From the NCBI RefSeq assembly GCF_036032445.1, contig NZ_CP107932.1:6822501-6886500 (forward strand): a stretch of DNA of 64,000 bases, in the 5' to 3' direction. This document shows positions 5,949-53,657 of this stretch, piece after piece. The DNA comes from Nocardia sp. NBC_00416 (GTDB taxonomy: Bacteria; Actinomycetota; Actinomycetes; Mycobacteriales; Mycobacteriaceae). The translations under genes were made by a program, and so were the position numbers. Under the pieces are notes generated by a model. The model did no database searches. It was given only the letters and a program-made list of their open reading frames with translations, and was not told where the DNA came from. Every line of letters starts with the position of its first letter. Position 1 is the stretch's first letter.

Positions 5949-6407
5949 TCAGAAGGCGCTACCGGAGCCGGGCAGATAGATGCGGGGGATGAGCGGAAGG
6001 CCGAGCCCGTAGCCCTGGCCGTAACCGCGGTCCCAGCCCCGGTTCCAGCCGTTGTCGTGGCGGCCGCGGTCGTTCCAGCCGCCGCCGTTCCAGCCCCGGT
6101 CGTGCCGGCCGCCGCCGTTCCACCCGCGATCGTGGTGACCGCCGCCGTTCCAGCCGCCGTCCCAGCCGCGGTCGTGGCGACCGCCGTTCCAGCCGCGGTC
6201 GTGCCGGCCGCCGCCGTTCCACCCGTGGTCGTTGCCGTGCCGCCCGGGCCGGCTCACATCCTGGACCTGGTCCTGGACCTCGATTCCGGCCGGTGCGCCG
6301 TTATCGGCGAGAGCGGGAGCGGCGGTGACGGCCAGCGGCGCCAAGACGATCGCCGCGGCGGTCGCGATCCGGACGGCGAGTCGGCGGGTGCGGGGGATTC
6401 GATGCAT
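5949..6407 (-). CDS. Secreted Trp/Gly/His/Arg-rich repeat protein
   Basis: 152 aa with a Sec signal peptide: a basic start (HRIPRTRRLAVR), a hydrophobic stretch and an ALA-D cleavage site near residue 34. From about residue 55 on it is built of irregular repeats of the type WNGGGRHDRG, with WDGG and WNDRG variants, about ten units. The C-terminus is different and ends LIPRIYLPGSGSAF. The His/Asp-rich repeats could bind metal ions or the wall surface, but this is a guess; I do not recognise a named family. The ATG at 6407 gives a clean signal peptide; an in-frame ATG 18 codons upstream would add a non-signal extension. Confidence 0.7.
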   Translation of the reverse strand: MHRIPRTRRLAVRIATAAAIVLAPLAVTAAPALADNGAPAGIEVQDQVQDVSRPGRHGNDHGWNGGGRHDRGWNGGRHDRGWDGGWNGGGHHDRGWNGGGRHDRGWNGGGWNDRGRHDNGWNRGWDRGYGQGYGLGLPLIPRIYLPGSGSAF

Positions 6408-24455: not shown

Positions 24456-24602
24456 ACCCCGATCTTCCCGCATCGGCGGTTCGTGAGTGATGAGGTCGTC
24501 CACCGCACCGAGTGCTAGAACAAGCCGCGACGTCAGGACGGCGGCTGTAACGTGTTCCACTCCGGAGTTCGAACAGACGGTCCGAAGGGGGATCGACCGC
24601 AG

Positions 24603-27308: not shown

Positions 27309-28076
27309 TCACGGCTGGTTGGGGGTGCGCCGGGCCAGGATGGACGCCACCCCCACGGCCGCCGCCTGTACCGATGCCGCGTGGGCCTCGGGGTGGAACC
27401 GGCTGACCGGCCCGGTGACCGATATCGCCGCCAGCGGCTGATCGTCGGCGCTGAGGATGGGAGCGGCCACGCAGACGATGCCGATCGCGGACTCCTCGTA
27501 CTCGTAGGCCAGCCCGCGTTCGACGATCTGTGACAGTTGCGCACGCAGCAGTCCCGGAGCGACCACTGTGCGCGGGGTGCGCCTGAGCAGCGGGCCCGCG
27601 AGGACACGATCGATCGTCTCGGCGCCCGAGTGCGCCAACAGCGTCTTGCCGATCGCGGTGCAGTACAACGGCATCCGGCCACCGATTCGCGACGGTGCGC
27701 GGGCCTGCCGGTGTCCACCGATCTTGCTGATGTAGACGACTTCGTCACCGTCGCGGACGCCGAAGTGCACCGTTTCCCGGGTGCGGGCGAAGAGGTCCTG
27801 GAGGAAGGGCACGGCGACCTCGAGCAGGGTCCGCTCGGTGGCCGCCCGCATGCCCAGCTCGAACAGTCCGCGCCCGAGCCGGTAACCGTCGGGCGACGAA
27901 CTGAGCAGCCGGGCGGCCACCAGATCGCGGGCCATGCGGTGGACGGTGGCCTTCGGGAGGCCGGTGCGCCGGGTGAGTTCGGACAGCCCCACGGCCTGAT
28001 CCTCCACGCCGAACGCTTCCAGGATCAGCAGTGCCCGGCCGAGGACGGAGCGTGCGTCGAGTCGAGGTTCCGGCAT
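27309..28076 (-). CDS. IclR-family regulator
   Basis: 255 aa. The N-terminal HTH reads VGLSELTRRTGLPKATVHRMARDLVA, followed by the effector domain with TVHFGVRDGDEVVYISKI and YCTAIGKTLLAH, ending with PLAAISVTGP. It is divergent from the meta-cleavage lower-pathway genes (28190-31270) and probably controls them. The dyad at 28097-28115 lies between. Some IclR proteins of this type govern aromatic or phenylpropionate catabolism. Confidence 0.88.
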   Translation of the reverse strand: MPEPRLDARSVLGRALLILEAFGVEDQAVGLSELTRRTGLPKATVHRMARDLVAARLLSSSPDGYRLGRGLFELGMRAATERTLLEVAVPFLQDLFARTRETVHFGVRDGDEVVYISKIGGHRQARAPSRIGGRMPLYCTAIGKTLLAHSGAETIDRVLAGPLLRRTPRTVVAPGLLRAQLSQIVERGLAYEYEESAIGIVCVAAPILSADDQPLAAISVTGPVSRFHPEAHAASVQAAAVGVASILARRTPNQP

Positions 28077-28096
28077 GGGGGTCTTCCGTGAGCGGG

Positions 28097-28115
28097 TGGT
28101 CCAGTCAGTGGACCA
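28097..28115. promoter_or_regulatory. IclR operator candidate
   Basis: TGGTCCA-GTCAG-TGGACCA, a perfect 7-base inverted repeat with a 5-base spacer. It sits 21 bases from the IclR start and 75 bases before the hydratase start, inside the divergent promoter region. Confidence 0.6.
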
Positions 28116-28189
28116 TTCTACTGTTCAGCTGCCCCGCTGCGGGTGTGCACTGGTTGGCAGCCCCATCGAAGAGGAGAACGGAGGTCGTG

Positions 28190-29038
28190 GTGGCCACCAC
28201 TGTCGACAGCACGAGCGACAGCGCATCCGGTGTCGACGAGTCGATCGTCGCCCGCGCAGCCCAACGCCTGATCACCGCCGCGGAGACGCGCCGAACCTGC
28301 GCGCCGCTACGGGAGGGGTTGATCAGCCCCGACGATGTCGCCACCGCCTACCTCATCCAGGAGCGGTTCAACGCCGCCCGGGTCACCCCGGGCATCACGG
28401 TGGTCGGCCGCAAGATCGGCGCCACCTCGCAGGCCGTCCAGCAGCAGCTGGGCGTCGACCAGCCCGATTTCGGGGTCCTGTTCTCCGATATGGCCTACGC
28501 CGACGGGGATGTCATCCCGATCGACCGGCTGCTGCAGCCGCGGGCCGAAGCGGAGATCGCGTTCCTGCTGGGCGCGGACCTCGCCGAGGGCCCGCTCGAT
28601 ATCGCGCAGTGCCGGGCGGCGGTCGCCGAGGCGATGGCCGCGCTGGAGATCGTGGACAGCCGCATCACCGACTGGAACATCTCCTTCGCCGACACCGTCG
28701 CCGACAATGCCTCGAGCGGGCTCTACGTGCTCGGGACCGAGCGCCGGACCCTCGACGACTTCGAACCCGTCGACGTCGCCATGAGCATGCGCATCGACGG
28801 GGAAGAGGTGTCGACCGGGAACGGCGCGGCCTGTCTGGGCGACCCGCTCAACGCCCTGTCCTGGCTCGCCCAGCAGGCTCGCACCTTCGGTGAGCCGCTG
28901 CGGGCCGGGCAGGTGATCCTGTCCGGGGCGCTCGGTCCGATGCGGCCGCTGCATCCCGGCGCCACCGTCACCGCCGCCATCACCGGCCTCGGGACGGTCA
29001 CGGCTTCGTTCACCACCGCTTCGGAGGTCTCCCAGTGA
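28190..29038 (+). CDS. 2-Hydroxypenta-2,4-dienoate (2-keto-4-pentenoate) hydratase
   Basis: 282 aa, fumarylacetoacetase-related fold. It hydrates 2-hydroxypentadienoate to 4-hydroxy-2-oxovalerate after meta cleavage of an aromatic or steroid ring. Family segments: [42 protein letters not shown] (metal-binding Glu residues) and [21 protein letters not shown] 28190 is preferred over GTG 28187 because GGAGG ends five bases before it. The stop overlaps the next start (GTGA). It is equivalent to MhpD/HsaE; which pathway it serves cannot be told. Confidence 0.88.
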
Positions 29039-29997
29039 GTGACAACAGCAAACGTACGAAGGTCGCGATCATCGGATCGGGCAATATCGGCACCGATCTG
29101 ATGATCAAGGTGCTGCGCCACTCCGAGTTCCTGGAGATGGGCGCCATGGTCGGCATCGACCCAGAGTCCGACGGCCTGGCCCGCGCCGCCCGCCTGAAGG
29201 TGCCGACCACCCACGAAGGGGTGGAGGGGCTGGTCGCGCTGCCGAACTTCGACGAGATCGAGATCATCTTCGACGCGACCTCGGCCAAGGCGCACGAGCA
29301 GAACCACGCCCGCCTCGCGCCGCTGGGCAAACGCCTCATCGACCTGACGCCCGCCGCGATCGGACCGTTCGTGGTGCCGGCGGTGAACATCGAGGAGCAC
29401 CTCGACGCGCCGAACGTGAACATGGTGACCTGCGGCGGTCAGGCGACCATCCCGATCGTGTCCGCGGTATCGCGGGTCGTGCCGGTGGCCTACGCCGAGA
29501 TCGTGGCCTCGATCGCGTCCAAGTCCGCCGGGCCCGGTACCCGCGCCAATATCGACGAGTTCACCGAGACCACCTCGCACGCCATCGAAACCGTGGGCGG
29601 CGCCGAGCGCGGTAAGGCGGTGATCATCCTCAATCCGGCGGAACCGCCGTTGATCATGCGCGATACGGTCTTCTGCCTGGTGAACGCCCCCGACGAGGAA
29701 TCCCACGACCGGATCAAGGCCTCGGTGGTGAAGATGGTCGGCGATGTGGCCGCGTATGTGCCGGGCTACCGGCTCAAGCAGGAAGTGCAGATCGATCCGA
29801 TTCCGCCGGACCAGCCGGTGCACACCCTGCTCGCCAAGGACAACGACGCGTTCCCGACCCATCGGGTGTCGGTATTCCTCGAGGTCGAGGGCGCGGCGCA
29901 CTACCTGCCCGCCTACGCGGGCAATCTCGACATCATGACTTCGGCGGGCATGCAGGTCGCCGAGCGGATCGCGCAGAACACCCAGCAGGCAGCATGA
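29035..29997 (+). CDS. Acetaldehyde dehydrogenase (acylating)
   Basis: 320 aa. Converts acetaldehyde (or propanal) plus CoA to acyl-CoA with NAD+. Rossmann motif [15 protein letters not shown], catalytic Cys in [12 protein letters not shown] (near 132), and the C-terminal interface [15 protein letters not shown]. It forms a channelling complex with the aldolase (MhpF-MhpE or HsaG-HsaF). It starts with GTG overlapping the hydratase. Its stop overlaps the ATG of the repeat frame at 29994 rather than the aldolase start, an unusual insertion between two partners normally adjacent. Confidence 0.93.
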
Positions 29998-30218
29998 GCG
30001 GGTCAGGCCCGGAGGCGGCAGCGGAGCGTAACCACGCAGGGCCCTCGCTCATGCTCAATGGACACAGCATGAGCGGGTCAGGCCCGGAGGCGGGAGCGGA
30101 GCGTAACCACGCAGGGCCCTCGCTCGTGCTCAATGGACACAGCATGAGCGGGTCAGGCCCGCAGGCGGCAGGGGAGCGTAACCACGCAGGCCCCCGCTCA
30201 TTCTCGATAGAAAAGGAG
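29994..30218. repeat. Three tandem 75-bp palindromic repeats
   Basis: Units begin at 29994, 30069 and 30144 and are almost identical; the third diverges in its last ~20 bases. Each unit starts ATGAGCGG and, after about 50 bases, has CGCTCAT. The outer arms (ATGAGCG / CGCTCAT) and an inner GGCCC/GGGCC pair make a hairpin. The arrangement resembles REP/MITE-like elements amplified in tandem. The unit length is a multiple of three. Confidence 0.85.
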
Positions 30219-30230
30219 AACGCCCGATGA
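29994..30230 (+). CDS. Possible 78-aa peptide encoded by 25-aa repeats
   Basis: This frame fills the gap between the dehydrogenase and the aldolase. Its ATG overlaps the upstream stop (ATGA) and its own stop overlaps the aldolase ATG (ATGA). It consists of three 25-residue units beginning [20 protein letters not shown], with variants [20 protein letters not shown] and [20 protein letters not shown]. No family is known. It may be a real linker-like peptide or only a frame tolerated because the inserted DNA repeats are 75 bases long, which keeps translation coupled through the operon. Confidence 0.4.
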
Positions 30231-31270
30231 GCTCGTCCGAAGCGCCGACGGTATTCGTCCAGGATGTGACCCTGCGCGACGGTATGCACGCCATCCGGCA
30301 CCGGATCACCCCCGAGAACGTGGGGCGGATCGTCGCGGCACTCGACGCCGCCGGTGTCGACGCCATCGAGGTCGCGCACGGTGACGGGCTGGCCGGCGGC
30401 TCGGTGAACTACGGCCCCGGCTCGCACAGCGACTGGACCTGGCTGGAAGCGGCGGCGGCGAACCTGAAGAACGCGCGGCTGACCAGCCTGCTGCTGCCCG
30501 GTGTCGGCACCGCCGAGGATCTGCGGCGCGCCTGGGGTCTCGGTGTGCGCTCGGTGCGCGTCGCCACCCACTGCACGGAAGCCGATGTCGCGGCCCAGCA
30601 CATCGCGACCGCGCGCGAGATCGGGATGGACGTCTCGGGGTTCCTGATGATGAGCCATATGGCCGAGCCCGCCGCGCTCGCCGCCCAGGCCAAGCTGATG
30701 GAGAGCTACGGCGCGCACTGCGTGTACGTCACCGACTCGGGTGGCCGTCTCACCATGAACGGTGTCCGGGACCGGATCCTGGCCTACCGTGACGTTCTCG
30801 ACCCGGCGACCGAACTCGGCATCCACGCGCACGAGAACCTGTCGCTGTCGGTGGCGAACTCCGTGGTCGCCGTCGAGAACGGGGTGCGTCGCGTGGACGC
30901 CTCCCTCGCGGGACACGGTGCGGGCGCGGGTAATACGCCGATCGAGGCATTCGTGGCCGTCGCCGATGTGCTGGGCTGGAAGCACGGTTGCGATGTGTTC
31001 GCCTTGCAGGACGCCGCGGACGATATCGTGCGGCCGCTGCAGGACCGGCCGGTGCGGGTGGACCGGGAAACGCTCACCCTCGGGTACGCGGGGGTGTATT
31101 CCAGCTTCCTGCGGCATGCCGAGGCGGCGAGCGAACGGTACGGAATCGATGTCCGCACCCTGCTCATGGAAGCCGGCCGGCGTCGGCTGGTGGGCGGCCA
31201 GGAGGACATGATCGTGGATATCGCGCTCACCATGGTGGCGGAGCGGGAGGCCGACAAGCAGGCGGTCTGA
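30227..31270 (+). CDS. 4-Hydroxy-2-oxovalerate aldolase
   Basis: 347 aa, DRE-TIM type class II aldolase, the last step of the meta-cleavage lower pathway giving pyruvate and an aldehyde. Motifs: [12 protein letters not shown] (catalytic Arg and metal Asp), [13 protein letters not shown], and the metal-binding [29 protein letters not shown] follows. The C-terminal part binds the acylating dehydrogenase. AAAAGGAGAACGC precedes the ATG. This enzyme equals MhpE/HsaF/BphI. Confidence 0.93.
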
Positions 31271-39805: not shown

Positions 39806-40720
39806 ATGACCACTGCCTCGCCGCAGGAAATCGCCAGAAAGCTGGGCTCCGGCCTGCTGTCCTTCCCGGTCACGCATCTGCGTGCCGACGGCGCCTTCGA
39901 CGAGGCCGCCTACCGGGACAACATCGCCTGGCTCGGCGGATTCGACGCCTCCGGCCTGTTCGCCGCCGGCGGCACCGGCGAGTTCTTCTCGCTCACCCCG
40001 GCCGAGGTCGAACAGGTGGTCACCGCCGCGGTGCAGGAGGCGCCGACGGGGTTGCCCGTGATCGCGCCCGCCGGATACGGCACCGCCACCGCGATCGAGA
40101 TGGCGCGCGCCGCCGAGCGCGCGGGCGCACACGGCATCCTGCTGCTGCCGCCCTATCTCACCGAGGCGAGCCAGGAAGGCCTGGTCGCGCACGCGCGGCA
40201 GGTCTGCGAGTCCACCGACCTCGGCGTCATCATCTACTCGCGCGCCAATGCCGCCTACTCGGAGGCGGCGGTCGCCGAACTGGCCGACCGCTGCCCCAAC
40301 CTGATCGGGTTCAAGGACGGCATCGGCAATATCGAACAGATGACCCGCATCTACGCGGGGGTCGGCGACCGCCTCATCTACATCGGCGGGCTCCCCACCG
40401 CGGAGATGTTCGCCCTGCCCTACCTCGCGCTGGGCGTCACCACCTATTCGTCGGCGATCTACAACTTCGTCCCGGAATTCGCACTGGATTTCTACCGTGC
40501 CCTGCGCCGCGGCGACACCGCCGCTGTGCTGAACGCGCTGAACGAGTTCGTGATCCCGTACTGCGATCTGCGCAACCGCACACCCGGGTACGCGGTGAGC
40601 ATCGTCAAGGCGGGGATGAGGGTGATCGGCCGCCCGGCGGGTCCGGTACGCAGTCCCCTGACCGATCTCGGCGAGACCGAACTCGCCGAGCTGGCCGACC
40701 TCGTTAAAAAGGTGAGCTGA
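39806..40720 (+). CDS. kdgD: 5-Dehydro-4-deoxyglucarate dehydratase
   Basis: 304 aa, DapA/NAL family TIM barrel. It converts 5-keto-4-deoxyglucarate to 2-oxoglutarate semialdehyde, CO2 and water. Family features: [17 protein letters not shown], the [17 protein letters not shown] signature and YSRANAAYS containing the catalytic Tyr. GFKDGIGN carries the Schiff-base Lys. The next gene encodes the enzyme that uses its product, which supports the assignment. CAGGAGCA lies upstream of the ATG. Stop and next start overlap (TGATG). Confidence 0.9.
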
Positions 40721-43394: not shown

Positions 43395-44319
43395 GGACGT
43401 GCACGGACGCGATCTGCGCTATTTCGCCGCGGTCGCCGAACAGTTGAACTTCACCCGGGCCGCCGAAAGCCTGTTCATCTCCCAGCCCGCGCTGAGCAAG
43501 CAGATCCGCGCGCTCGAACAACAGCTCGGCGCACCGCTGTTCGATCGGGACGGGCGTGCGGTGCGCTTGACCCCGGTGGGAACGGCATTGCTGCCGCACG
43601 CGCAACGGATGCTGGCCGCCTGGGATGCCGCCCGCGGCGATGTGGAGGCCGCGAAGGCGGGGCAGCGGGCCACGCTGGTCATCGGGATCAGCACCAGTCC
43701 CGGGCGTGGGCTGCTCCCGGCCGTTCGTTCCCGCTTCGCCGCGGCCCATCCGGCCGCCAAACCTGTACTGCGGCAGATCGGCTGGGTCGATCCGAGCGCG
43801 GGGCTGGCCGGTGGCGACGCCGATGTGGCGTTCGTCTGGCTGCCGCTGGCCGACGCCGAACGCTACGAATGGCTCGTGGTGGCCCGCGAGCCCCGGGTGG
43901 TCGCACTGCCCGAGACGCATTTGCTCGCCCGGCACGACACCGTCGAGTTCGCCGATCTGCTCGACGAACCGTTCCTCGCGCTGCCCGAGTCGGCGCGGGT
44001 GCTGCGGGACTATTTTCTCGCGGTCGACGAGCGCGGTGGTCGGCCGCCGGTTATCGGTGGTGAGATCTCGAGTACCGAGGAGACCTATGAGTCGGTGCTG
44101 AACGGCGACGGTGTGGTGCTGATGGCGGCGGGTAACGCGCCGCTGGTCGCGCATGCCGGGGTGGTGGTGCGACCGGTGCGCGGCGTGAGTGCCAGCGAAC
44201 TGGCTCTGGCCTGGCGGCGCGCCGATGACCGGCCGCTGGTGCGCGGCTATATCGCTGCATGCCGGGCCGCGCTGGCCGGGTCGGCCGGTTCGGGTGGATC
44301 GCCTCCGCGGACAAAGTAG
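43393..44319 (+). CDS. LysR-family regulator
   Basis: 308 aa. HTH: LRYFAAVAEQLNFTRAAESLFISQPALSKQIRALEQQLG. The effector domain begins LVIGISTSPGRGL. The ATG at 43393 lies inside the palindrome 43380-43394, so the transcript may be leaderless or autorepressed. A TTG two codons upstream is less likely. Its TAG stop is also the first part of the KstR-type box before fadD. Confidence 0.88.
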   Translation: MDVHGRDLRYFAAVAEQLNFTRAAESLFISQPALSKQIRALEQQLGAPLFDRDGRAVRLTPVGTALLPHAQRMLAAWDAARGDVEAAKAGQRATLVIGISTSPGRGLLPAVRSRFAAAHPAAKPVLRQIGWVDPSAGLAGGDADVAFVWLPLADAERYEWLVVAREPRVVALPETHLLARHDTVEFADLLDEPFLALPESARVLRDYFLAVDERGGRPPVIGGEISSTEETYESVLNGDGVVLMAAGNAPLVAHAGVVVRPVRGVSASELALAWRRADDRPLVRGYIAACRAALAGSAGSGGSPPRTK

Positions 44320-44330
44320 AACGTGTTATA
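44317..44330. promoter_or_regulatory. KstR-type operator upstream of fadD
   Basis: TAGAACGTGTTATA fits the published KstR consensus TNNAACNNGTTNNA at every fixed position. It overlaps a -10-like TATAGT (44327-44332). KstR represses steroid catabolic genes in mycobacteria and rhodococci until a 3-oxo-cholestenoyl-type CoA ester binds. Confidence 0.72.
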
Positions 44331-44467: not shown

Positions 44468-46081
44468 ATGAACACTGAGCCGCAGGCGCAGATGAACACT
44501 GAACCGCACGTGGACGACAGCGCCCTGCTGCACCGTGAGCCACTGGCGGTGGACCTACTGGGCAAGGCCCTCGAGCGGTACGCCGACCGCACCGCGGTCC
44601 ATATCGACGACGCCACCCTGACCTACCGCGACGTACGCGATCAGATCAGCCGGTTCGCGCAGGCGCTGGCCTCGGCCGGGCTGGGCGTGGGATCGCCGGT
44701 GGCCGTGCTCTCGGCCAACCGGCCGGAGGTGATCTTCGCGCAGGGCGCCAACAATGTGAACGGGTCGCGCGCCATGGCGTTGCACCCGATGGGTTCGCTC
44801 GACGATCACGCCTATGTGCTCGAGGACGCGGGCGTGCAGACCCTGATCTACGATCCGGCCGGCTTCGACGAGCGGGCCGCGCAGCTGCGCGACAAAGTGC
44901 CCGGACTGCGGAACTTGTTCTCGTTCGGTCCCTCCGAGACGGGCGTCGATCTCATCGAACTGGCCGCCGGTTTCACCCCGGCGCCGGTGCGGGGGCCGCG
45001 GGTGGATCTCAACGACACCATGAGCCTGGCCTATACCGGTGGCACCACCGGCAAACCCAAGGGCGTGGAGATGAGCTTCCGCGGCAGCACCACCATGCTG
45101 CGGATCCAGATGACCGAATGGGAGTGGCCCGACGAGGTCCGGTTCCTGGTGTGCACCCCGCTCAGCCACGCGGGCGCTGCCTTCTGGAACCCCACCGCCC
45201 AGCAGGGCGGCTCCATCGTCGTGCTGCCGTACTTCCACCCGGCCAAGGTGCTCGAGGCGATCGAGAAGTACAAGATCACCGCGACCATGCTGGTGCCCAC
45301 CATGCTGTACGCGCTGCTGGACAGCCCGGACCTGGACAAGTACGACCTGTCCAGCCTGCAAACGGTGTTCTACGGCGCCTCCGCGATCTCGCCGACCCGG
45401 CTGGCCGAGGCGATCGAGAAGTTCGGCCCGATCTTCTTCCAGTTCTACGGTCAGGCCGAGAGCCCGATGACCATCGCGGTACTGCGCCGCGGCGACCACG
45501 ATCTGAACAAACCGGAACGGCTGGCCAGCTGCGGTCGCCCGGTGCCGTGGCTGTCGGTGGCGCTGCTCGACGAGAAGGGCAACGAGGTGCCCCAGGGCGA
45601 ACCGGGCGAAGTGTGCGTGCGCGGGCCGCTGGTGATGAACGGATACCTCAACAAACCCGAACAGACCGCGGAGGCCACCGAATTCGGCTGGCTGCACACC
45701 GGGGACATCGCCCGGCAGGACGAGGAGGGCTTCCTCTACATCGTCGACCGCAAGAAGGACATGATCGTCTCCGGCGGATTCAACGTGTATCCGCGCGAGG
45801 TCGAGGATGTGCTGTCGGCGCATCCGGCGGTGAGCGCGGCGGCGGTCATCGGTGTGCCGGACGAGAAATGGGGCGAGGCGGTCAAGGCGGTGGTCGTGCT
45901 GCGCGAGGGCCAGAGCGTCACGGTCGAGGAGTTGCAAGCGCTGGTGAAAGACCGCAAGGGTGCGGTGTACACACCGAAGACGGTGGATTTCGCCGACAGT
46001 ATTCCGGTGAGCCCGCTGGGCAAGCCGGACAAGAAGGCGCTGCGTGCGCAGTACTGGGGCGAAGGCCGGCAGGTGAACTGA
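44468..46081 (+). CDS. fadD: Acyl-CoA synthetase (FadD-type, AMP-binding)
   Basis: 537 aa. P-loop YTGGTTGKPKGVEMS, the adenylate-binding FQFYGQAES and GWLHTGDIA, then VDRKKDMIVSGGFNVYPREVE with the hinge Asp/Lys, and the C-terminal Lys in SPLGKPDKKALR. All catalytic parts are intact. It activates a carboxylic acid to its CoA thioester. The KstR box in front suggests a sterol side-chain or ring acid; FadD19/FadD3-like roles are possible but not decided by sequence. The N-terminus has a short duplication (MNTEPQAQ, MNTEPHVD). Confidence 0.9.
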   Translation: MNTEPQAQMNTEPHVDDSALLHREPLAVDLLGKALERYADRTAVHIDDATLTYRDVRDQISRFAQALASAGLGVGSPVAVLSANRPEVIFAQGANNVNGSRAMALHPMGSLDDHAYVLEDAGVQTLIYDPAGFDERAAQLRDKVPGLRNLFSFGPSETGVDLIELAAGFTPAPVRGPRVDLNDTMSLAYTGGTTGKPKGVEMSFRGSTTMLRIQMTEWEWPDEVRFLVCTPLSHAGAAFWNPTAQQGGSIVVLPYFHPAKVLEAIEKYKITATMLVPTMLYALLDSPDLDKYDLSSLQTVFYGASAISPTRLAEAIEKFGPIFFQFYGQAESPMTIAVLRRGDHDLNKPERLASCGRPVPWLSVALLDEKGNEVPQGEPGEVCVRGPLVMNGYLNKPEQTAEATEFGWLHTGDIARQDEEGFLYIVDRKKDMIVSGGFNVYPREVEDVLSAHPAVSAAAVIGVPDEKWGEAVKAVVVLREGQSVTVEELQALVKDRKGAVYTPKTVDFADSIPVSPLGKPDKKALRAQYWGEGRQVN

Positions 46082-46095
46082 CCTTGCCGGGGCGG

Positions 46096-46362
46096 CTACC
46101 GCTCGTATATGGCACGGCAATGTCCGGCGGATACGACCAGGATCATCAGTTTCCCGTCGTCGACTTGGTATACGAGACGGTAGTTGCCCACTCGCAGCCG
46201 GAATCCGGCTCGACCGGTGAGCGCTTTCACGTCTATGCCATCGCGCCGGTAGGGGTCGTCGCCCAGGAGTGTCAGCGCAACCAACAGCCGTAGGGCGTCT
46301 TCTTGCGGGATCGTTCGAAGTGCGCGCCGAGCGGCGGGGGTCCAGCAGAATTCGTACTTCAT
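46096..46362 (-). CDS. RelE/ParE-family toxin
   Basis: 88 aa. WTPAARRALRTIPQEDALRLL at the start and GFRLRVGNYRLVYQVDDGKLMILVV at the end give the RelE fold. Most RelE family members cut mRNA in the ribosome. Basic residues R and Y in RVGNYRLVY are in the usual catalytic positions. It overlaps the antitoxin stop by 4 bases (ATGA). Confidence 0.88.
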   Translation of the reverse strand: MKYEFCWTPAARRALRTIPQEDALRLLVALTLLGDDPYRRDGIDVKALTGRAGFRLRVGNYRLVYQVDDGKLMILVVSAGHCRAIYER

Positions 46363-46652
46363 GCGACGGCGTCGTTGCCCGCTGCCAGCACCTCGTCCAT
46401 CATCTGGCCAAGGGTGATGTGTTCCGGCTCACCCGCCTCGGCCAGCGCCTCATCGGCCATCTGTCCCAACTGCTCATCCTCCCACTCTTCGAGTTTGGCG
46501 AGCATGAAGAGTGGAATTACGGCTGCGGCCGGTTCGCCGCCGCGAGTGATCAGGGTGACGTGTCCGTCTTGTATCGCGGCGTTGACCACCGAGGGCAGTT
46601 GAGCGCGGGCCTCTCGGATACTCAGCTGGTCGTCCACTTCCGAAGTGTACAC
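46359..46652 (-). CDS. Phd/YefM-family antitoxin
   Basis: 97 aa. SIREARAQLPSVVNAAIQDG and HVTLITRGGEPAAAVIPL are the Phd/YefM DNA-binding fold. The acidic C-terminus (LEEWEDEQLGQMADEALAEA) would neutralise RelE. The GTG at 46652 is used; GTG 46637 is also possible. GTGTACACC-C-AGGTGTGTAC around the start (46645-46664) is an imperfect palindrome and likely autoregulatory site. Confidence 0.85.
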   Translation of the reverse strand: MYTSEVDDQLSIREARAQLPSVVNAAIQDGHVTLITRGGEPAAAVIPLFMLAKLEEWEDEQLGQMADEALAEAGEPEHITLGQMMDEVLAAGNDAVA

Positions 46653-46700: not shown

Positions 46701-47438
46701 TCACCGGTCCGGTGGGCCGGTGAGGATCGCGGTGACGGTGTCGATCAGCTCGGTGAGCAGTTCATCGGAGGAGAGCCGGGTCCCGCTGAGTGCGAGCATG
46801 CCCCGGAGACCTTCCGGATCGCCCAGGGTCTGGAAGGTCAGGTTCATGGCCTGGGTGAGGCGGAAGCGGAGCGTGCGGGGTGCGGTGCCCGGGGCGGTTT
46901 CCTCCAGCAGGGCGTTGAAACGCAGGGCCTGCGGGGCGAAACCCTCGGTCAGCCGGGTCAGCGCGGGATGGTTACCGCTCATGATGCCCGCGACCAGGCG
47001 GATCCAGGGTGTGCCGCCCGCGGCGGCGAGCTCCCCGACCGGGCGGACGAAAGCGTCGGCGAGCGCGCGGGCGTCGGGCGCACCGAGGGCTTCGACGGTG
47101 TCGAGCAGTTCGGCCCGCCGGGTGTGCAGTTGTTCGCTGCGCCGGCTGATCAGCGCTTCGACCAGCGCGTCCTTGGAACCGAAATGGTAGTGGACCGACG
47201 CGACATTCGCGCCGGCCTCCGCCATCACCGAACGCAGGGATACCGCGTCGATCCCGCGTTCGGCGAACAGTCGTTCCGCGGCCAGGATCAGGCGTTGATC
47301 GGTGGGCAGCACGGGGTCCGGTCCCGCACCGGGTTCCGCGCCCCCCGGGGCTGTGCCTTCGCCCGCGCCCGGTTCTTCGGACACGGGCGCAGGGGCCGGG
47401 CGTGGATCCCGGCCCGCCCTCGTCCGGCCCGATGTCAT
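46701..47438 (-). CDS. TetR-family regulator at the end of the thiolase operon
   Basis: 245 aa, but the first ~45 residues are Pro/Gly/Ala-rich and the HTH begins later (LPTDQRLILAAERLFAERGI). It continues VSLRSVMAEAGANVASVHYHFGSKDALVEAL. A GTG at 47312 would remove the extension. It starts 10 bases after the canonical thiolase and is the last gene of the minus-strand operon. The operator candidates before that operon share the half-site of the TetR/OYE locus at 8388, and the HTH of both proteins is similar. Confidence 0.85.
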   Translation of the reverse strand: MTSGRTRAGRDPRPAPAPVSEEPGAGEGTAPGGAEPGAGPDPVLPTDQRLILAAERLFAERGIDAVSLRSVMAEAGANVASVHYHFGSKDALVEALISRRSEQLHTRRAELLDTVEALGAPDARALADAFVRPVGELAAAGGTPWIRLVAGIMSGNHPALTRLTEGFAPQALRFNALLEETAPGTAPRTLRFRLTQAMNLTFQTLGDPEGLRGMLALSGTRLSSDELLTELIDTVTAILTGPPDR

Positions 47439-47448
47439 GATCGAAACT

Positions 47449-48648
47449 CTAGGAGACCGCGTCGGGGGCGCCGTACAGGGTCACCACGCAGGCGCCGCCG
47501 AGCCCGAGATTGTGCGCCAGTCCCAAGCGCGCACCCGGCACCTGACGCTCACCCGCGGCCCCGCGGACCTGGGTCACCAGTTCCGTGCACTGCGCCAGAC
47601 CGGTGGCGCCGAGCGGGTGGCCCTTGGAGATGAGACCGCCCGAGGGGTTGACCACCCACCGGCCGCCGTAGGTGGTGGCGCCCGATTCGACCAGCCCACC
47701 GGATTCACCCTCCCCGCACATACCGAGGGCCTCGTAGGTGAGCAGTTCGTTGATCGAGAAGCAGTCGTGCACTTCGAGCACATCGATGTCGTCGATGCCC
47801 ACGCCGGCGGTTTCCAGCACCCGCCGCCCGGCGGTGCGGGCCATGGGGGCGCCCACCACGTCGATCATGGAACCGGATTCGAACGCGGCGCCGCTATCGG
47901 TGACCAGCTCCTGCGCGAGGATCGGCACCGCGCGGTCGAGTCCGTGCTCCCGGGCGTAGCGCTCGCTGACCAGGACGGCGGCGCCCGCGCCGTCGGACAT
48001 GGGGGAGCACTGCGACCGGGTCAGCGGATCGGAGACCATTTTGTCGCCGAGGACCTGTTCGAGGGTGTAGGCGTCCTGGAACTGGGCTTTCGGATTGCGG
48101 GTGGAGTGTTCGTGGTTCTTCACCGCGACCTGTGCGAGTTGTTCGCGGGTGGTCCCGTACCGCTTCATGTGTTCGGCGCCGGCCGCGGCGAAGAACTGCG
48201 CGGTCAGCGGGGCCTGGCCGAACCCGGCCGCGGCCTTCAACGCGTCGATGTGCAGGTCGATGGTGGTGACCTTCGGCGTAGTGCCGTCACCGGCCATGGC
48301 CTGTTTGGTCATCTGCTCGAACCCGACCGCGAGCACGATATCGGCCAGCCCGGCCTGCACCCATTCGCGGGCGAGGACCAGCGCGGTCGATCCGGTGGCG
48401 CAGTTGTTGTTGACGTTGACCACCGGAATGCCGGTGAGCCCGATCTCGTAGAGCGCCCGCTGCCCGGCGGTCGACGGCTGGAAGACGTACCCGACCGCCG
48501 CGCGCTGCACCTGGTCGTAGCGCACCCCGGCGTCGGTGAGCGCCTGGCCGACCGCTTCGGCGACCATCTGCGGATACGTCCAGTCCCGGGTCTGGATCTT
48601 CTCGAATTTCGTCATCCCGACACCGGCGACGTACACCTGCTCGGTCAT
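47449..48648 (-). CDS. SCP-x-type thiolase / lipid-transfer acyltransferase
   Basis: 399 aa. This one has the complete thiolase active site: nucleophile Cys in NNNCATGST (near 82-90), HDCFS (second Cys region), and GHPLGATGLAQC with the catalytic His. It is the non-fused SCP-2/SCP-x thiolase class used for branched or sterol side-chain 3-ketoacyl-CoA. TGAGGAGAGAATT precedes the ATG, partly overlapping the stop of a mini-ORF (48659-48760). Paralogue of mycobacterial Ltp thiolases. Confidence 0.88.
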   Translation of the reverse strand: MTEQVYVAGVGMTKFEKIQTRDWTYPQMVAEAVGQALTDAGVRYDQVQRAAVGYVFQPSTAGQRALYEIGLTGIPVVNVNNNCATGSTALVLAREWVQAGLADIVLAVGFEQMTKQAMAGDGTTPKVTTIDLHIDALKAAAGFGQAPLTAQFFAAAGAEHMKRYGTTREQLAQVAVKNHEHSTRNPKAQFQDAYTLEQVLGDKMVSDPLTRSQCSPMSDGAGAAVLVSERYAREHGLDRAVPILAQELVTDSGAAFESGSMIDVVGAPMARTAGRRVLETAGVGIDDIDVLEVHDCFSINELLTYEALGMCGEGESGGLVESGATTYGGRWVVNPSGGLISKGHPLGATGLAQCTELVTQVRGAAGERQVPGARLGLAHNLGLGGACVVTLYGAPDAVS

Positions 48649-48658
48649 AATTCTCTCC

Positions 48659-48760
48659 TCAGAAGCTGATATAGGCGATGCGGCGGAGGCGGAGGTATCG
48701 CATCGCGATTTCTCCTTGCCCGGGTGCGGTGTGATCCGTGAAAGCGTTGTCGCGGTTCAT
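48659..48760 (-). CDS. 33-aa mini-ORF between two thiolase genes
   Basis: ATG 48760 overlaps the stop of the upstream thiolase-like gene (ATGA). An internal ATG at 48703, with a perfect-looking AAGGAGAAATCGCG before it, would give the 14-aa peptide MRYLRLRRIAYISF. The stop codon runs into the ribosome site of the next gene (TGAGGAGAG), so its translation could control the canonical thiolase. Arg/Tyr-rich leader-like ending. No homologue recognised. Confidence 0.45.
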   Translation of the reverse strand: MNRDNAFTDHTAPGQGEIAMRYLRLRRIAYISF

Positions 48761-49911
48761 GATTGCGGTGGTTCGGAACCGACCACCCACAGCGCGTGGA
48801 ACTGGGCGGCGCCGCCCATGGCGTGCCCGATGGCCCGCCGCGCGTCCGGCACCTGATGCTCGCCCGCGGTGCCGCGCACCTGCATGGCGGCTTCGGCGAA
48901 ACGCAGCAGACCCGTAGCGCCCGTGGGATTTCCGGAGAGCACACCGCCGGAGGGGTTGATCGGCAGCTCGCCGCCGAACGCGGTGCGGCCGGAATCCACC
49001 ACCTTCCAGCCCGCCCCCACCTCGGCCAGGCCGACGTTCTCCAGCCAGATCGGTTCGAACCAGCTGTAGGGGATGTAGAGCTCGGCGGTATCGATCTCGC
49101 GCGCCGGATCGGTGATCCCGGCCTGCCGGTACGCCTCGGCGGCGCACTGCCGGCCGGCTTCGGGGTTCACTTCGTCGCGGCCGGCGAAATGACCCGTCTC
49201 GGTGCGCCACGACATGCCGTGGATCCAGGCCGGGGGCCGGCCGGTGTGGTGGGCGTCGGCTTCCCCGGTGATCACCACCGCGCACGAACCGTCCGAGGAC
49301 GGGCACGATTCCAGGAACCGGATCGGGTCCCACAGCATCCGGGATTCGCGCACCTGGTCCACGGTGATATCCGGCAGTTGGATATGCGCGTAGGGGTTGC
49401 GGGTCGCGTTCAGCCGGTGGTTCACGGCGATCTGCCAGCCGATGTGCTCCGGCGCCTGCGCCCGGCGGATGTACTCCCGGATCACCGGCGCGAAATGCGC
49501 GCCTGCGCCCGCGCCGAGTTGTGCGCTGAACGGCAGCCCGCGCGAGAGGGCCCAGGTGAAATCGCCTTCGGATTCCTTCGAATACGCGACCACCAGTACC
49601 CGGCGCGCCAACCCCGCCTGCACCAGGTGGGCGCCGTATATCGCGGCGTGCCCGCCGACGCTGCCGCCGGTGAACACCCGGGTCACCGGTAGCCCGCGCG
49701 CCCCCATGGCATCGGCGAGATACAGCTCCGGGTTCATCACCCCGTCGAACAGATCCGGAGTTTTCGACAGCACGACGGCGTCGATATCACCGAATTCCAG
49801 TTCGGCGTCGGCCATCGCCTGGTCGACGGCTTCGCGCACCATCGCACCGATGGTGACCTTGCGCTTCTTGGCCTGTTTGCTCTGTCCGATTCCGACGACC
49901 GCGAGTTTCAC
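48757..49911 (-). CDS. Thiolase-fold protein lacking the nucleophilic Cys (Ltp type)
   Basis: 384 aa. Overall thiolase fold with KLAVVGIGQSKQAKK at the N-terminus and INPSGGVLSGNPTGATGLLR near the end. However, the usual NxC position reads FTGGSVGGHAAIY with no Cys, and the HDxF site is YIPYSWFEPIW, where Tyr residues replace catalytic His/Cys. Some Ltp proteins with this pattern (Ltp2) are aldolases that act with DUF35 partners on sterol side chains. The length matches mycobacterial Ltp3. The GTG start overlaps the preceding stop. Confidence 0.78.
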   Translation of the reverse strand: MKLAVVGIGQSKQAKKRKVTIGAMVREAVDQAMADAELEFGDIDAVVLSKTPDLFDGVMNPELYLADAMGARGLPVTRVFTGGSVGGHAAIYGAHLVQAGLARRVLVVAYSKESEGDFTWALSRGLPFSAQLGAGAGAHFAPVIREYIRRAQAPEHIGWQIAVNHRLNATRNPYAHIQLPDITVDQVRESRMLWDPIRFLESCPSSDGSCAVVITGEADAHHTGRPPAWIHGMSWRTETGHFAGRDEVNPEAGRQCAAEAYRQAGITDPAREIDTAELYIPYSWFEPIWLENVGLAEVGAGWKVVDSGRTAFGGELPINPSGGVLSGNPTGATGLLRFAEAAMQVRGTAGEHQVPDARRAIGHAMGGAAQFHALWVVGSEPPQS

Positions 49912-50978
49912 CGGTCTCCCTCCAATAGGCAGATCATGTTCTGCTGGAGCGCGGGCCCGCTGGTGGCGTGCGCCAGCGTGCGGTCCGCGCGACCGGTCAG
50001 GATGTGCCGCGCCGCCTCGCCGATCCGGATGAGGCCGGTGGCGGTGGTGGGCCGGGCGACCAGCGGGCCGCCGCCGGGATTGACGGTGGCGCCGGATAAT
50101 TCGAGCGCGCCCGCCAGCAGCGGTTCCTGATAGCTGTACTCGGTGTGCAATTCGGCGATCTGGACGTCGCGGGCGCCGAAACCGGCCTGATCGGCTGCCT
50201 TGGCCGCCGCCAGCGTCACCGTGTCGACCCGGGTGAGGTCGCGGGTGCCCGGATAGTGGGTGTCCATCCGATGGTCGGCGCCGCGCACCCAGGCCGGGCA
50301 TGCGGCCAGACGTCGCGCCGTATCGCCGGACGCCAGGACGAGAACCGCGGCGGCGTCGCCGATCGGTCCGCGATCGTGTTCGCGCAGCGGCGAGGCCAGG
50401 TAGGGGGCGGCCAGCAGTTCGTCGACCGTGACCTCCCCGGACACCTGCGCGCCCGGATTGCCCACCGCGGCCGCGCGCGCCCGGGCGACCACCTCGGCCA
50501 TCTGCTTCTCGTCCAGCGCGCCCGCGGCGACCAGGGCCTGGGCCTGCAGCGCCGCGAGCGCGTCCTGATGCGGGCGCAGCGGGGCCAGGAAATAGGGGTC
50601 GAGCTGGGTGGCGGTGACCTGGTCGAGGTCGGTCGCCAGCGATCCGCGCCCGACGCCGTAGACCACCGCGATCTCGCCCTCACCGAGTTGCAGCCACGAC
50701 CACGCCTCGTAGGCGGCCCAGGCCGCGTCCATCTCGACATGGGATTCCGAGATCGGCGGCCACGCGCCCACCGCGTCCAGCGATTCGATATAGGCGAAGG
50801 TCCGGCCTTCGTGGAAATCGTGACTGCCCGACGCCCAGAAATCGACCTCGGTGCGCTCGATCCCGGCCGACCCCAGTGCTTCCCGCATCACCGGGAGCAG
50901 GATCTCGGCCATATCGTCGCGCCGGTCGGCTGTCGTGCCCGGTGACTGTGCGAATGCCACCACCGCGATATCACGCAT
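49908..50978 (-). CDS. Second Cys-less thiolase-fold protein (Ltp type)
   Basis: 356 aa. Thiolase-like outline (RDIAVVAFAQSPGTT near the start, NPGGGPLVARPTTATGLIRIG near the end). The nucleophile region (ESHVEMDAAWAAYEAW) has no Cys, and HTEYSYQEP takes the place of the HDCF site. Size and place match mycobacterial Ltp4, which sits with Ltp3 and a DUF35 protein. It probably forms a heteromer with its neighbour and the DUF35 proteins. The start codon overlaps the upstream DUF35 stop region by 8 bases. Confidence 0.76.
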   Translation of the reverse strand: MRDIAVVAFAQSPGTTADRRDDMAEILLPVMREALGSAGIERTEVDFWASGSHDFHEGRTFAYIESLDAVGAWPPISESHVEMDAAWAAYEAWSWLQLGEGEIAVVYGVGRGSLATDLDQVTATQLDPYFLAPLRPHQDALAALQAQALVAAGALDEKQMAEVVARARAAAVGNPGAQVSGEVTVDELLAAPYLASPLREHDRGPIGDAAAVLVLASGDTARRLAACPAWVRGADHRMDTHYPGTRDLTRVDTVTLAAAKAADQAGFGARDVQIAELHTEYSYQEPLLAGALELSGATVNPGGGPLVARPTTATGLIRIGEAARHILTGRADRTLAHATSGPALQQNMICLLEGDR

Positions 50979-51444
50979 CGGAACCTCCCGCGATCGGCCG
51001 GTAGTAGCGAATGCTGTTCATGGATGTCTCCAGGTCGGCGTCGGCGCACCACACCGGTTCCACCCGCATGCCGATGTGCACGTCGGCGAGTTCGACATCG
51101 CGAACCAGGTGCATGAGTGTGGTGTCCGCGCCGTCCACCTGGATATAGGCCACCAGATACGGCGGCTCGATCTGCTGGCCGGGGAACGGGAAGTTCACCA
51201 CGCAGAAGGTCTTCACCACTCCGGCGCCGGCCAGTTCGAATGGTTCGGACAGTTCGTTGAGGCAGCGGGAGCAGAATTCGGGTGCGGGCAGGTAGACCCG
51301 CTCGCAGGTCGGGCAGCGCCGGGCGAGCAGCCGGCGTTCCCGCAAGCCGCGCAGGAAAGCCGAGCGGCCGGTTCCGGCGACGAAGGTGTAATCAACCTTG
51401 TGCGGGCTGGTGAACGATTCCACCGGGCTGGGCAGGGTGCTCAT
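50971..51444 (-). CDS. DUF35 protein: Zn-ribbon plus OB-fold
   Basis: 157 aa. N-terminal helices, a zinc ribbon RRCPTCERVYLPAPEFCSRC (four Cys near 43-62), then an OB-fold (VVKTFCVVNFPFPGQQIEPPYLVAYIQVDG). DUF35 proteins bind acyl-CoA and partner with hydratases or Ltp-type thiolases/aldolases in sterol degradation. Its ATG shares one base with the stop of the next DUF35 gene upstream (TGATG). Confidence 0.85.
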   Translation of the reverse strand: MSTLPSPVESFTSPHKVDYTFVAGTGRSAFLRGLRERRLLARRCPTCERVYLPAPEFCSRCLNELSEPFELAGAGVVKTFCVVNFPFPGQQIEPPYLVAYIQVDGADTTLMHLVRDVELADVHIGMRVEPVWCADADLETSMNSIRYYRPIAGGSDA

Positions 51445-51902
51445 CACGACTCCACCGGTTCGAAGCAGACGATATCGCGGATACTGCCGACCCGTTCCGC
51501 GCGCCAGCGGGGCGCCACCCGCAGGCCGGCGGTGAGACGGGACGGGTCGCCGCCGGTGTCCACGGCGTGGAACAGGGCGCCCGTGGTGCCGTCGATGGCG
51601 ATCAGGGCCCAGGCGAAGTGATCGGCCGCGATCTCGTCGCCGGGTCGGGTGGGCACCCAGGTCCAGTGGGTGACCGTGCCCGCGGGTGTCAGCCGGACCA
51701 GTTCGCCGGTGGGCGCCGCGGAGACCGGATCGAACTCCAGCGCGGGGCAGAGCACCGCGCCGGACGCGGTGCGCACCCCGTACAGTTCGCCGTCGCGCAG
51801 ACCGCCGAGGAACGTGCCGATCTTCTCGCCGACAGTTCTGTTGTACGGGAATTCGATGCTGTAGGGCGCGGTCAGGCTCGCGTCCGGGGACTCGGCTGTC
51901 AT
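51444..51902 (-). CDS. DUF35-like OB-fold protein with degenerate Zn site
   Basis: 152 aa, first gene of the operon. It has the OB-fold outline (GELVRLTPAGTVTHWTWVPT and GALFHAVDTGGDPSRLTAGL) but only single Cys (GAVLCPALEF) where the partner has a four-Cys ribbon. The two adjacent DUF35 genes together equal the length of a single two-domain DUF35 protein in mycobacterial ltp3/ltp4 clusters (recalled, not checked), so they may be a split form of it. The ATG at 51902 starts a clean N-terminus. Confidence 0.72.
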   Translation of the reverse strand: MTAESPDASLTAPYSIEFPYNRTVGEKIGTFLGGLRDGELYGVRTASGAVLCPALEFDPVSAAPTGELVRLTPAGTVTHWTWVPTRPGDEIAADHFAWALIAIDGTTGALFHAVDTGGDPSRLTAGLRVAPRWRAERVGSIRDIVCFEPVES

Positions 51903-51975: not shown

Positions 51976-51995
51976 TCAATCACTTGATTGAATCA
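51976..51995. promoter_or_regulatory. Nested TetR-type dyads before the thiolase operon
   Basis: TCAATC-ACTT-GATTGA (51976-51991) and TGATT-G-AATCA (51985-51995) overlap. They lie 74-93 bases upstream of the first DUF35 start. The half-site is the same as at 8388-8416. Confidence 0.6.
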
Positions 51996-52082: not shown

Positions 52083-52096
52083 TAGAACCTGTTCCA
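52083..52096. promoter_or_regulatory. KstR-type operator upstream of the aldehyde dehydrogenase
   Basis: TAGAACCTGTTCCA fits TNNAACNNGTTNNA fully. It lies 25 bases before the ALDH start, and 181 bases from the divergent DUF35 start, so it may act on both sides. Confidence 0.72.
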
Positions 52097-52121: not shown

Positions 52122-53657
52122 ATGGCCATCGTTGAACAGCTGGAGCCGACCACCGACGGGCGGCGTCGACTCGAGCTGCGCAGCCCCGCTACCCGTGAAC
52201 GCGTCGGCGAGATCGAGGTGAGTACGGCCGACGATGTGGCCGCGGTCCTGGCCACGGCGCGCGCGGCGCAGCCGGGCTGGGCCGCCCGGCCGGTCAAAGA
52301 GCGCGCCGCGATCATCCGCAACGCGGTCTCGGTGCTGCTCGCGCGGCGCGACGAGATCGTCGAGACGGTGATGCAGGAGACCGGTAAACCGCGCGTCGAG
52401 GCGCTCGCCGTCGAGATGGTTCCGGCCTGCGATTTCCTGAACTACTGGAGCGGCCGGGCGCCCAAGGATCTGGCCGACGAGAACCGGCGGCTGCACGGCT
52501 ACATGCTGCCGCTGAAGAAACTCGTCATCAACTATCAGGCGCTCGGCGTGGTCGGGGTGATCACGCCCTGGAACGGCCCGTTCATCCTCTCCCTCAACCC
52601 GATCGCCCAAGCGCTGCTGGCCGGCAACTCGGTGGTCCTCAAGCCGTCCGAGGTCACCCCGCATTCGGGGGAGTGGGCGGTCAAGGTGCTGCACGAGGCG
52701 GGCGTGCCCGAGGATGTCCTGCAGGTCGTGCACGGTGACGGCGAGACCGGCGCGGCGCTGGTCGACGGCGATATCGACAAGATCTCGTTCACCGGCAGCG
52801 TCGGCACCGGGAAGAAGATCGCCGCCGCGTGCGCCGGCCGGTTGATTCCCTGCACCCTCGAACTCGGCGGCAAGGACGCGATGATCGTCTGCGCCGACGC
52901 CGACCTGGATCGCGCGTCCCTCGGCGCGGTGTATCTGTCGATGTTCAACACCGGTCAGGTCTGCGTCGGAGTCGAGCGGATCTACGTGGTGGACAGCATC
53001 GCCGACCGGTTCATCGAAGAGGTGCGCAAACGCGCCGCCGAGGTCACCTACGGGGCCGTCGGCAAGGATGTCGGCCCGCTGTTCTGGGACCGGCAGCTGG
53101 AGATCGTCGAGAAGCACGTCGAGGACGCCAAGGCCAAGGGCGCCACCATCCTGCTCGGCGGTGAATCCGATACTGCCGAAGGCGTGTTCTTCAAGCCGAC
53201 GGTGGTCGTGGACGTCACCCACGATATGGACATCATGCAGCAGGAGACCTTCGGTCCGATCGTCGCGATCATGCGAGTGCGCGACGAGGAGGAGGCCGTG
53301 AAACTGGCCAACGACTGCCAGTACGGGCTCAGCGGCAGCGTGTTCACCAAGGACAAGGCCAAGGTCGTCCGCCTCGCCAAACAGCTCAAGACCGGCTCGG
53401 TAGTGCAGAACGACGCGTCGGTGATCTATGGCGTCGCCGAAGCGCCGTTCGGCGGCCGCAAGGACAGCGGTCTGGGCACGGTCAACGGCCGCGACGCGCT
53501 GCGCGGATTCGCCCACCCGCAGCCCGTGCTGCTCGACCGCTGGGGTCTGAAGAAGGAAAGCATCTGGTACCCCTACAGCGAGGCCACGGCCGCCACGCTG
53601 GAGAAGAGCATCGCCACCCTGTTCGGCAACAAGATCATGCGCCGCCTGGTGCGCTGA
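52122..53657 (+). CDS. NAD-dependent aldehyde dehydrogenase
   Basis: 511 aa, class-3-like ALDH. Segments: GVVGVITPWNGPFILSLNPI, KPSEVTPHSG, FTGSVGTGK, catalytic Glu in LELGGKDAMIV, nucleophile Cys in NTGQVCVGVER and PFGGRKDSGLG. The C-terminal tail is longer and ends with a hydrophobic helix (SIATLFGNKIMRRL), possibly membrane attached. A KstR box precedes it, so it may oxidise an aldehyde from sterol side-chain or propionyl removal. GGAGAG lies upstream of the ATG. Confidence 0.9.
   Translation: MAIVEQLEPTTDGRRRLELRSPATRERVGEIEVSTADDVAAVLATARAAQPGWAARPVKERAAIIRNAVSVLLARRDEIVETVMQETGKPRVEALAVEMVPACDFLNYWSGRAPKDLADENRRLHGYMLPLKKLVINYQALGVVGVITPWNGPFILSLNPIAQALLAGNSVVLKPSEVTPHSGEWAVKVLHEAGVPEDVLQVVHGDGETGAALVDGDIDKISFTGSVGTGKKIAAACAGRLIPCTLELGGKDAMIVCADADLDRASLGAVYLSMFNTGQVCVGVERIYVVDSIADRFIEEVRKRAAEVTYGAVGKDVGPLFWDRQLEIVEKHVEDAKAKGATILLGGESDTAEGVFFKPTVVVDVTHDMDIMQQETFGPIVAIMRVRDEEEAVKLANDCQYGLSGSVFTKDKAKVVRLAKQLKTGSVVQNDASVIYGVAEAPFGGRKDSGLGTVNGRDALRGFAHPQPVLLDRWGLKKESIWYPYSEATAATLEKSIATLFGNKIMRRLVR

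Follow-up and report, generated by a model that had tools for sequence, protein, structure and literature searches.

The window analysed here is a stretch of 64,000 nucleotides from Nocardia sp. NBC_00416 (NZ_CP107932.1, positions 6,822,501 to 6,886,500), and it contains an operon of five genes, named E, D, C, B and A in their order on the minus strand. E (51444..51902, 152 aa) encodes a zinc-less DUF35 protein with an OB fold and D (50971..51444, 157 aa) a zinc (C4) DUF35 protein. C (49908..50978, 356 aa) and B (48757..49911, 384 aa, GTG start) encode an Ltp4-type and an Ltp3-type thiolase-fold protein, both devoid of the catalytic cysteine, and A (47449..48648, 399 aa) encodes a complete type-1 SCP-x thiolase. 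The ends of E, D, C and B overlap or abut, and a gap of 108 bp separates B from A. Matches of the set to curated families reach E=1e-140 to 1e-183 and the gene order is kept in about 26 other loci, indicating that these five genes are genuine, far beyond chance. An earlier note on this DNA had recognized a thiolase trio in which two members lack the cysteine, and both the conserved motifs and the NCBIfam matches confirm it.

B matched the Ltp3-type family PRK08313 (NF006180, 608 bits for a cutoff of 514) and C the Ltp4-type family PRK07937 (NF005924, 467 bits for a cutoff of 419); as both are above cutoff, the possibility that B and C form new protein families was discarded. Their kinship to DUF35-partnered retro-aldolases, put forward in the earlier note, is borne out by these matches. 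The predicted structures of B and C (predicted local distance difference test, pLDDT, 84 and 87, respectively) are full thiolase folds, B matching 6esq with a Z of 50.6 and C matching 6et9 with a Z of 42.8; DUF35-partnered thiolases came top, and Ltp2 and Sal were also listed. Searches of PDB sequences found no solved Ltp3- or Ltp4-type structure.

Catalytic residues were mapped by aligning B and C to the Ltp2 of the same genome, which scores 625 bits to T. curvata Ltp2 (6ok1), using the catalytic residues described for Ltp2 and Sal (PMC12329534). At the position of the nucleophilic cysteine, B has Ser84 in 27/27 sequences of its clade, and C has Glu82/Met83 within the motif SHVEMDAAW, invariant in 82/82 sequences, in agreement with the missing nucleophile reported from the letters. 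The base Tyr294 of Ltp2 (YDHF) corresponds to Tyr279 of B (LYIPYS), which is kept in 27/27 sequences of the clade and in all 53 canonical Ltp3 sequences covering the site; the same position is His278 in C, so that the tyrosine base is kept by B only. Tyr344, the second acid of Ltp2, falls on the histidine of the thiolase GHP motif and is replaced by an invariant Asn328 in B and mostly by Arg309 in C, while the position of Ltp2 His296 is an invariant Pro281 in B. B therefore has the Ltp2 base without Tyr344 and His296, and we do not class it as an Ltp2. Nor does it have the Tyr302-Cys304 dyad of Sal, since it keeps the tyrosine and has Pro281 in place of the catalytic Cys304.

The earlier note had read catalysis from the motifs YSWFEP and YSYQEP, and this part of it does not hold. 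Their tyrosines (Tyr282 in B, Tyr281 in C) were considered as homologues of the catalytic Tyr294 and rejected, because they align to the phenylalanine of YDHF and Tyr279 is the true equivalent; moreover, Sal Tyr305, which matches the YS tyrosine, is not essential (PMC12329534). The position is nevertheless informative: it is Phe in the canonical copies (53/53 Ltp3, 54/55 Ltp4) and Tyr in the window clade (26/27 for B, 27/27 for C), meaning that both subunits were altered alike. Within the clade, B is better conserved than any other protein of the block, with 76-98% identity versus 63-93% for C, and outside the nearest relatives the values to the window copy are 76-91% for B versus 63-82% for C. 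Because of its tyrosine base and this conservation, B is likely the catalytic subunit, and C could complete the site of B across a dimer interface or serve as a scaffold.

The two DUF35 proteins also differ from each other. D contains the motif CxxC-x10-CxxC and E lacks it in 26/26 loci of the clade, as expected from the earlier description of one zinc and one zinc-less protein; D is over the cutoffs of PF01796 and PF12172, and E reaches 18.5 bits with PF01796, below cutoff. In the canonical locus the two DUF35 units are fused in tandem; E matches the N-terminal and D the C-terminal half of this fused protein, in which the C4 zinc site is missing from both halves in 47/48 cases.

Such a canonical copy exists in the same genome, as an ltp4-ltp3 locus with fused tandem DUF35 at 5.750-5.753 Mb, among EchA19-, FadD19-, Cyp125-, FadA5- and F420-oxidoreductase-like genes (named by similarity and gene order). 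An igr-like operon with ChsH2, ChsH1 and Ltp2 lies at 5.68 Mb. A YENF thiolase-like protein (locus L111) was considered as the Ltp2 of this genome and ruled out, being another lipid-transfer-type protein; the true Ltp2 stands beside ChsH1/ChsH2 (L113). The region of the YENF protein (L111:6531-11878, genome 2.28 Mb) also encodes a separate zinc DUF35 protein, a large acetyl-CoA acetyltransferase (PRK08257) and an aldehyde dehydrogenase-like open reading frame.

Relatives were collected from a scan of 84,980 species genomes, of which the best 80 loci were kept. This yielded 26 further window-type loci (63-93% identity for C), followed by canonical copies at about 50%. The window-type set is found, with its order conserved, in Nocardia, Actinoplanes, Hoyosella, Amycolatopsis, Kibdelosporangium and others; E-D-C-B is kept across the loci, with A next in all except Mycobacteroides. 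Some mid-scoring Ltp4 matches in Actinoplanes were examined as possible lone window-type sets, and this was ruled out in the five checked, all having a fused DUF35 and no SCP-x. In maximum-likelihood trees, the 27 window-type sequences form one group with a support of 100/100 for C and 100 for B, and the canonical copy of the genome shares 56% identity with B and 49% with C. The block has the adjacent ltp4-ltp3 pair after two DUF35 units that defines an Ltp3/Ltp4 set, the units being two genes; it does not fall inside the canonical ltp3/ltp4 clade, and this separate tree group makes it a paralogous subtype rather than an orthologue of the canonical genes.

The comparison with mycobacterial ltp3/ltp4 loci that the earlier note had proposed thus places B and C in the right family, above the Ltp3/Ltp4 cutoffs. 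Compared with canonical Ltp3-Ltp4 (Rhodococcus ltp3/ltp4; M. tuberculosis Rv3521-Rv3523), the window set has in common the families, the DUF35-DUF35-Ltp4-Ltp3 order, the loss of the cysteine and a KstR-type box ahead; it differs by its separate clade (about 49-57% identity), the division of the DUF35 units over two genes, of which D retains the zinc site, the Phe-to-Tyr change in B and C alike, and the addition of the SCP-x thiolase, a TetR-type regulator, a CoA ligase and an aldehyde dehydrogenase. The set had been called new, and this stands for a separately conserved paralogous subtype but not for the families, which are known, with canonical ltp3/ltp4 elsewhere in the genome. In the open-access literature, subscription papers being outside the scope, we found no description of a second ltp3/ltp4 set, nor of its second clade, split zinc/zinc-less DUF35 pair, coordinated active-site change and co-regulated partners; the chemistry is known as well.

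A belongs to PRK08256 (NF006102, 594 bits for a cutoff of 436), matches zebrafish SCP2-thiolase 6hsj with E=1.5e-144, and is the only protein of this genome over the PRK08256 cutoff. Cys83 (NNNCATGS), HDCFS and GHP are retained in 25/25 orthologues, so that A displays the nucleophile, the HDCF and GHP motifs and the family match of a type-1 SCP2 thiolase, the one complete SCP-x thiolase announced for the operon. Type-1 SCP2-thiolases act on 2-methyl-branched 3-oxoacyl-CoAs. A restriction of this enzyme to carriers of the window-type set was ruled out, type-1 SCP-x thiolases being present in 11/15 tested genomes, canonical-only ones included. In Mycobacteroides (L044, L047) the locus has no A, and in other loci an EchA19-like hydratase gene stands between B and A; both facts somewhat weaken the idea of a single five-protein complex, and membership of A in one complex with B, C, D and E is doubtful on these genomic grounds.

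The KstR motif is TAGAAC(N2)GTTCTA, with the core TnnAACnnGTTnnA, and the known KstR sites include that of the canonical ltp4-ltp3 promoter, Rv3520c/Rv3521 (PMC1995591). With at most one mismatch, the 64-kb window contains exactly two KstR-type sites, against 0 in 100 shuffles. The first, TAGAACCTGTTCCA (52083..52096), lies in the divergent promoter of E and of an aldehyde dehydrogenase gene that starts 26 bp further on, and the second, TAGAACGTGTTATA (44317..44330), lies upstream of an acyl-CoA synthetase gene. Both have one mismatch to TAGAACNNGTTCTA, with 0 expected, and the promoter of the set thus carries the TnnAACnnGTTnnA/TAGAACNNGTTCTA box characteristic of the KstR regulon. The whole genome (7.37 Mb) has 22 KstR-type boxes versus 8 in a reversed control; one of the 22 is in the canonical ltp4 promoter and another next to the igr region. 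Among the 27 loci, a box precedes the set in 19, and 32 of 47 boxes lie at most 300 bp ahead of a gene for E, an aldehyde dehydrogenase, an SDR or a ligase, where 1.8 were expected; two Hoyosella loci, with paired boxes before an SDR-E-D-C-B-A operon, were left out of this count because gene calling was poor there. The KstR2 motif had no site in the 64-kb window. A perfect palindrome, TCAATCAAGTGATTGA (51976..51991), upstream of E is likely the operator of the local TetR-type regulator, whose gene (46701..47438, minus strand) lies 10 bp downstream of A and is present in 22/27 loci; the CWATCANNTGATWG core occurs upstream of E in 15/27 loci. Two further observations concern these boxes. A looser KstR-core match, TGTAACGTGTTCCA, at 24546-24559 has the same letters as a box that lies in L110 between a Cyp125-like and a FadA5-like gene, and in Nocardia cyriacigeorgica (L038, L041, L054, near 6370-6390) perfect 12/12 KstR-type boxes precede an SDR gene adjoining the aldehyde dehydrogenase, this SDR being a candidate further member of the pathway.

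The company of the set points in the same direction. Canonical ltp4 and Ltp2 (71-96% identity) are present in 18/18 carrier genomes examined; canonical ltp4 is found in 87/298 genomes of the order at large, and in Actinoplanes the canonical copy is found in 27/68, all three carriers among them. In Hoyosella altamirensis, the set adjoins FadD3 (742 bits for a cutoff of 657), and the contig that bears both also carries canonical ltp4 on one side of the set and Ltp2 on the other. Four loci, those of Nocardia mexicana, N. transvalensis, N. aurantia and Amycolatopsis acidicola, have the EchA19-like hydratase gene inserted between B and A; in Mycobacteroides franklinii (L047) this gene follows B. 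Taken with the KstR-type boxes, this company, the location in a steroid region and the EchA19-like partner make a link of the set to steroids very probable, and the sterol side-chain link of the earlier note is upheld by the boxes, the co-occurrence and the Hoyosella location.

The two genes behind the KstR-type boxes encode possible partners. The aldehyde dehydrogenase (52122..53657, plus strand) has succinic semialdehyde dehydrogenase NF006916 as its nearest NCBIfam model (457.6 bits, below the cutoff of 521). Aldehyde dehydrogenases near the set form three sequence clusters in three lineages: the gene is divergent across the box in the close Nocardia relatives, is the first gene of the operon in Actinoplanes, and is nearby in N. 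mexicana, N. transvalensis and Amycolatopsis. The acyl-CoA synthetase (44468..46081, plus strand) is FadD8-like (NF004838, 708 bits, below the cutoff of 875); a CoA ligase is present in 21/27 loci, and in several genera its gene follows A immediately, within the operon. In Proteobacteria, an aldolytic precedent is Shy-Sal-Sad-CoA ligase, and Sad homologues were reported absent near the R. jostii cholate cluster (PMC8399759).

We favour, with some reserve, the interpretation that the genome has in this block a second retro-aldolase set of the Ltp3-Ltp4 type, a paralogous one that serves steroid or sterol side chains under predicted KstR-type control. B and C would form a heteromer carried on the DUF35 proteins D and E, as in Ltp2-ChsH2(DUF35), Sal-Shy(DUF35) and BbsAB. 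The EchA19-like hydratase, whose gene is part of the operon in some genomes, would produce the hydroxyacyl-CoA, Tyr279 of B would remove the proton from the beta-hydroxyl of the steroid beta-hydroxyacyl-CoA, and the C-C bond would be broken to give a short acyl-CoA and an aldehyde or ketone. Where an aldehyde is formed, the linked dehydrogenase would convert it to an acid that the linked acyl-CoA synthetase would re-activate for the next round. A may run an alternative thiolytic round on 2-methyl-3-oxoacyl-CoAs, for which the same complex is not required. Retro-aldol chemistry is probable, and because the Shy-Sal-Sad-ligase pathway is likewise made up of a hydratase, an aldolase, an aldehyde dehydrogenase and a ligase, a cut to an aldehyde appears as its most likely form, although we rate the aldehyde route itself as plausible rather than probable.

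Several observations weigh against this interpretation. B lacks the second acid and the histidine of Ltp2, and C lacks the tyrosine base. A strong KstR-type box is missing from eight of the 27 loci (a loose box is present in one of these), no aldehyde dehydrogenase was seen nearby in L042, L052 and L053, and the Actinoplanes co-occurrence by itself (3/3 vs 24/65, p ~0.06) is suggestive only. Canonical ltp3/ltp4 genes are needed for C24-branched sterol side chains in Rhodococcus, as Wilbrink 2012 is summarized in PMC8708139. They are thought to act on these branched chains, and cleavage at a tertiary alcohol would then yield a ketone, leaving the aldehyde dehydrogenase unexplained.

An alternative is plain redundancy, in which a duplicated Ltp3/Ltp4 performs the same C24-branched phytosterol step and the neighbouring genes for aldehyde dehydrogenase, ligase and SCP-x thiolase have ordinary jobs of their own. 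The shared families, gene order and KstR-type control, and the constant presence of the canonical locus beside the window-type set in tested genomes, agree with it; we nevertheless find it unlikely given the distance of B and C from their canonical copies, the fully supported separate clade, the changes fixed in this clade (Tyr for Phe in both subunits, split DUF35, zinc retained in D, and Arg for Asn in C in 21/27 sequences) and the recurrence of aldehyde dehydrogenase and ligase beside the set. It is less likely again that C, and perhaps B too, is a non-catalytic scaffold or pseudo-enzyme, the chemistry being done by B homodimers or A: C does lack the cysteine, the tyrosine base and the GHP histidine and is more variable than B within the clade, but SHVEMDAAW, His337, Gln345 and Asn347 are invariant across 82 sequences of both clades, beyond the needs of a scaffold, and Ltp3-Ltp4 has been described as a heteromeric aldol-lyase (review PMC6678751). 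Recruitment into the KstR regulon of another branched isoprenoid or methyl-branched acid pathway (pristanate-like, hopanoid, terpenoid), suggested by the similarity of A to type-1 SCP2-thiolases and by a FadD8-like ligase that is no known steroid ligase, is the least probable in view of the boxes, the canonical ltp4 and Ltp2 company, the Hoyosella location and the EchA19-like hydratase.

The retro-aldolase set can also be compared with other DUF35-partnered aldolases. Ltp2-ChsH2 shares the cysteine-less thiolase fold, the DUF35 partner and the base tyrosine, but Ltp2 is a homodimer whose DUF35 partner is joined to a MaoC hydratase subunit. Proteobacterial Sal-Shy (PDB 9myr), with Sad and a CoA ligase in the pathway, likewise shares the base tyrosine, but it has a single aldolase protein, a Cys3His1 zinc site and a DUF35 fused to the hydratase, and it acts on bile acids. 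The Atf1-ChsH4-ChsE6-KstR3 operon of Mycolicibacterium neoaurum, likened by description only, similarly combines a steroid aldolase, a stand-alone DUF35 and a TetR-type regulator, with one aldolase, one DUF35 and a reductase in place of the aldehyde dehydrogenase.

Elsewhere in the window, consecutive plus-strand genes at 28031-31270, about 13 kb from the set, encode a 2-hydroxypentadienoate hydratase-like protein (below cutoff), an acetylating acetaldehyde dehydrogenase and a 4-hydroxy-2-oxovalerate aldolase, that is, a meta-cleavage lower pathway. The KdgD gene (39806-40720, plus strand) encodes a 5-dehydro-4-deoxyglucarate dehydratase of glucarate catabolism, unrelated to the aldolase set, and a small antitoxin-like open reading frame (46359-46652, minus strand; Phd-like by eye) lies between the CoA ligase and TetR genes.

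By analogy with the proteobacterial pathway, we tentatively suggest that the block may be an actinobacterial counterpart of Shy-Sal-Sad, separately built from an Ltp3/Ltp4-type heteromer, in which the tyrosine base of B and the invariant Glu, Asp and His of C would share or complete one site and a steroid aldehyde would pass to the co-regulated aldehyde dehydrogenase and CoA ligase, in a full aldolytic cycle under KstR. The steps of branched sterol side-chain removal have so far only been proposed, and this set, with its fixed active-site changes, split DUF35 and co-regulated aldehyde dehydrogenase and ligase, offers a natural comparison for the role of each subunit. It also leads to the prediction that actinobacteria break down steroids through a free aldehyde intermediate, which would be useful for steroid-drug precursors.

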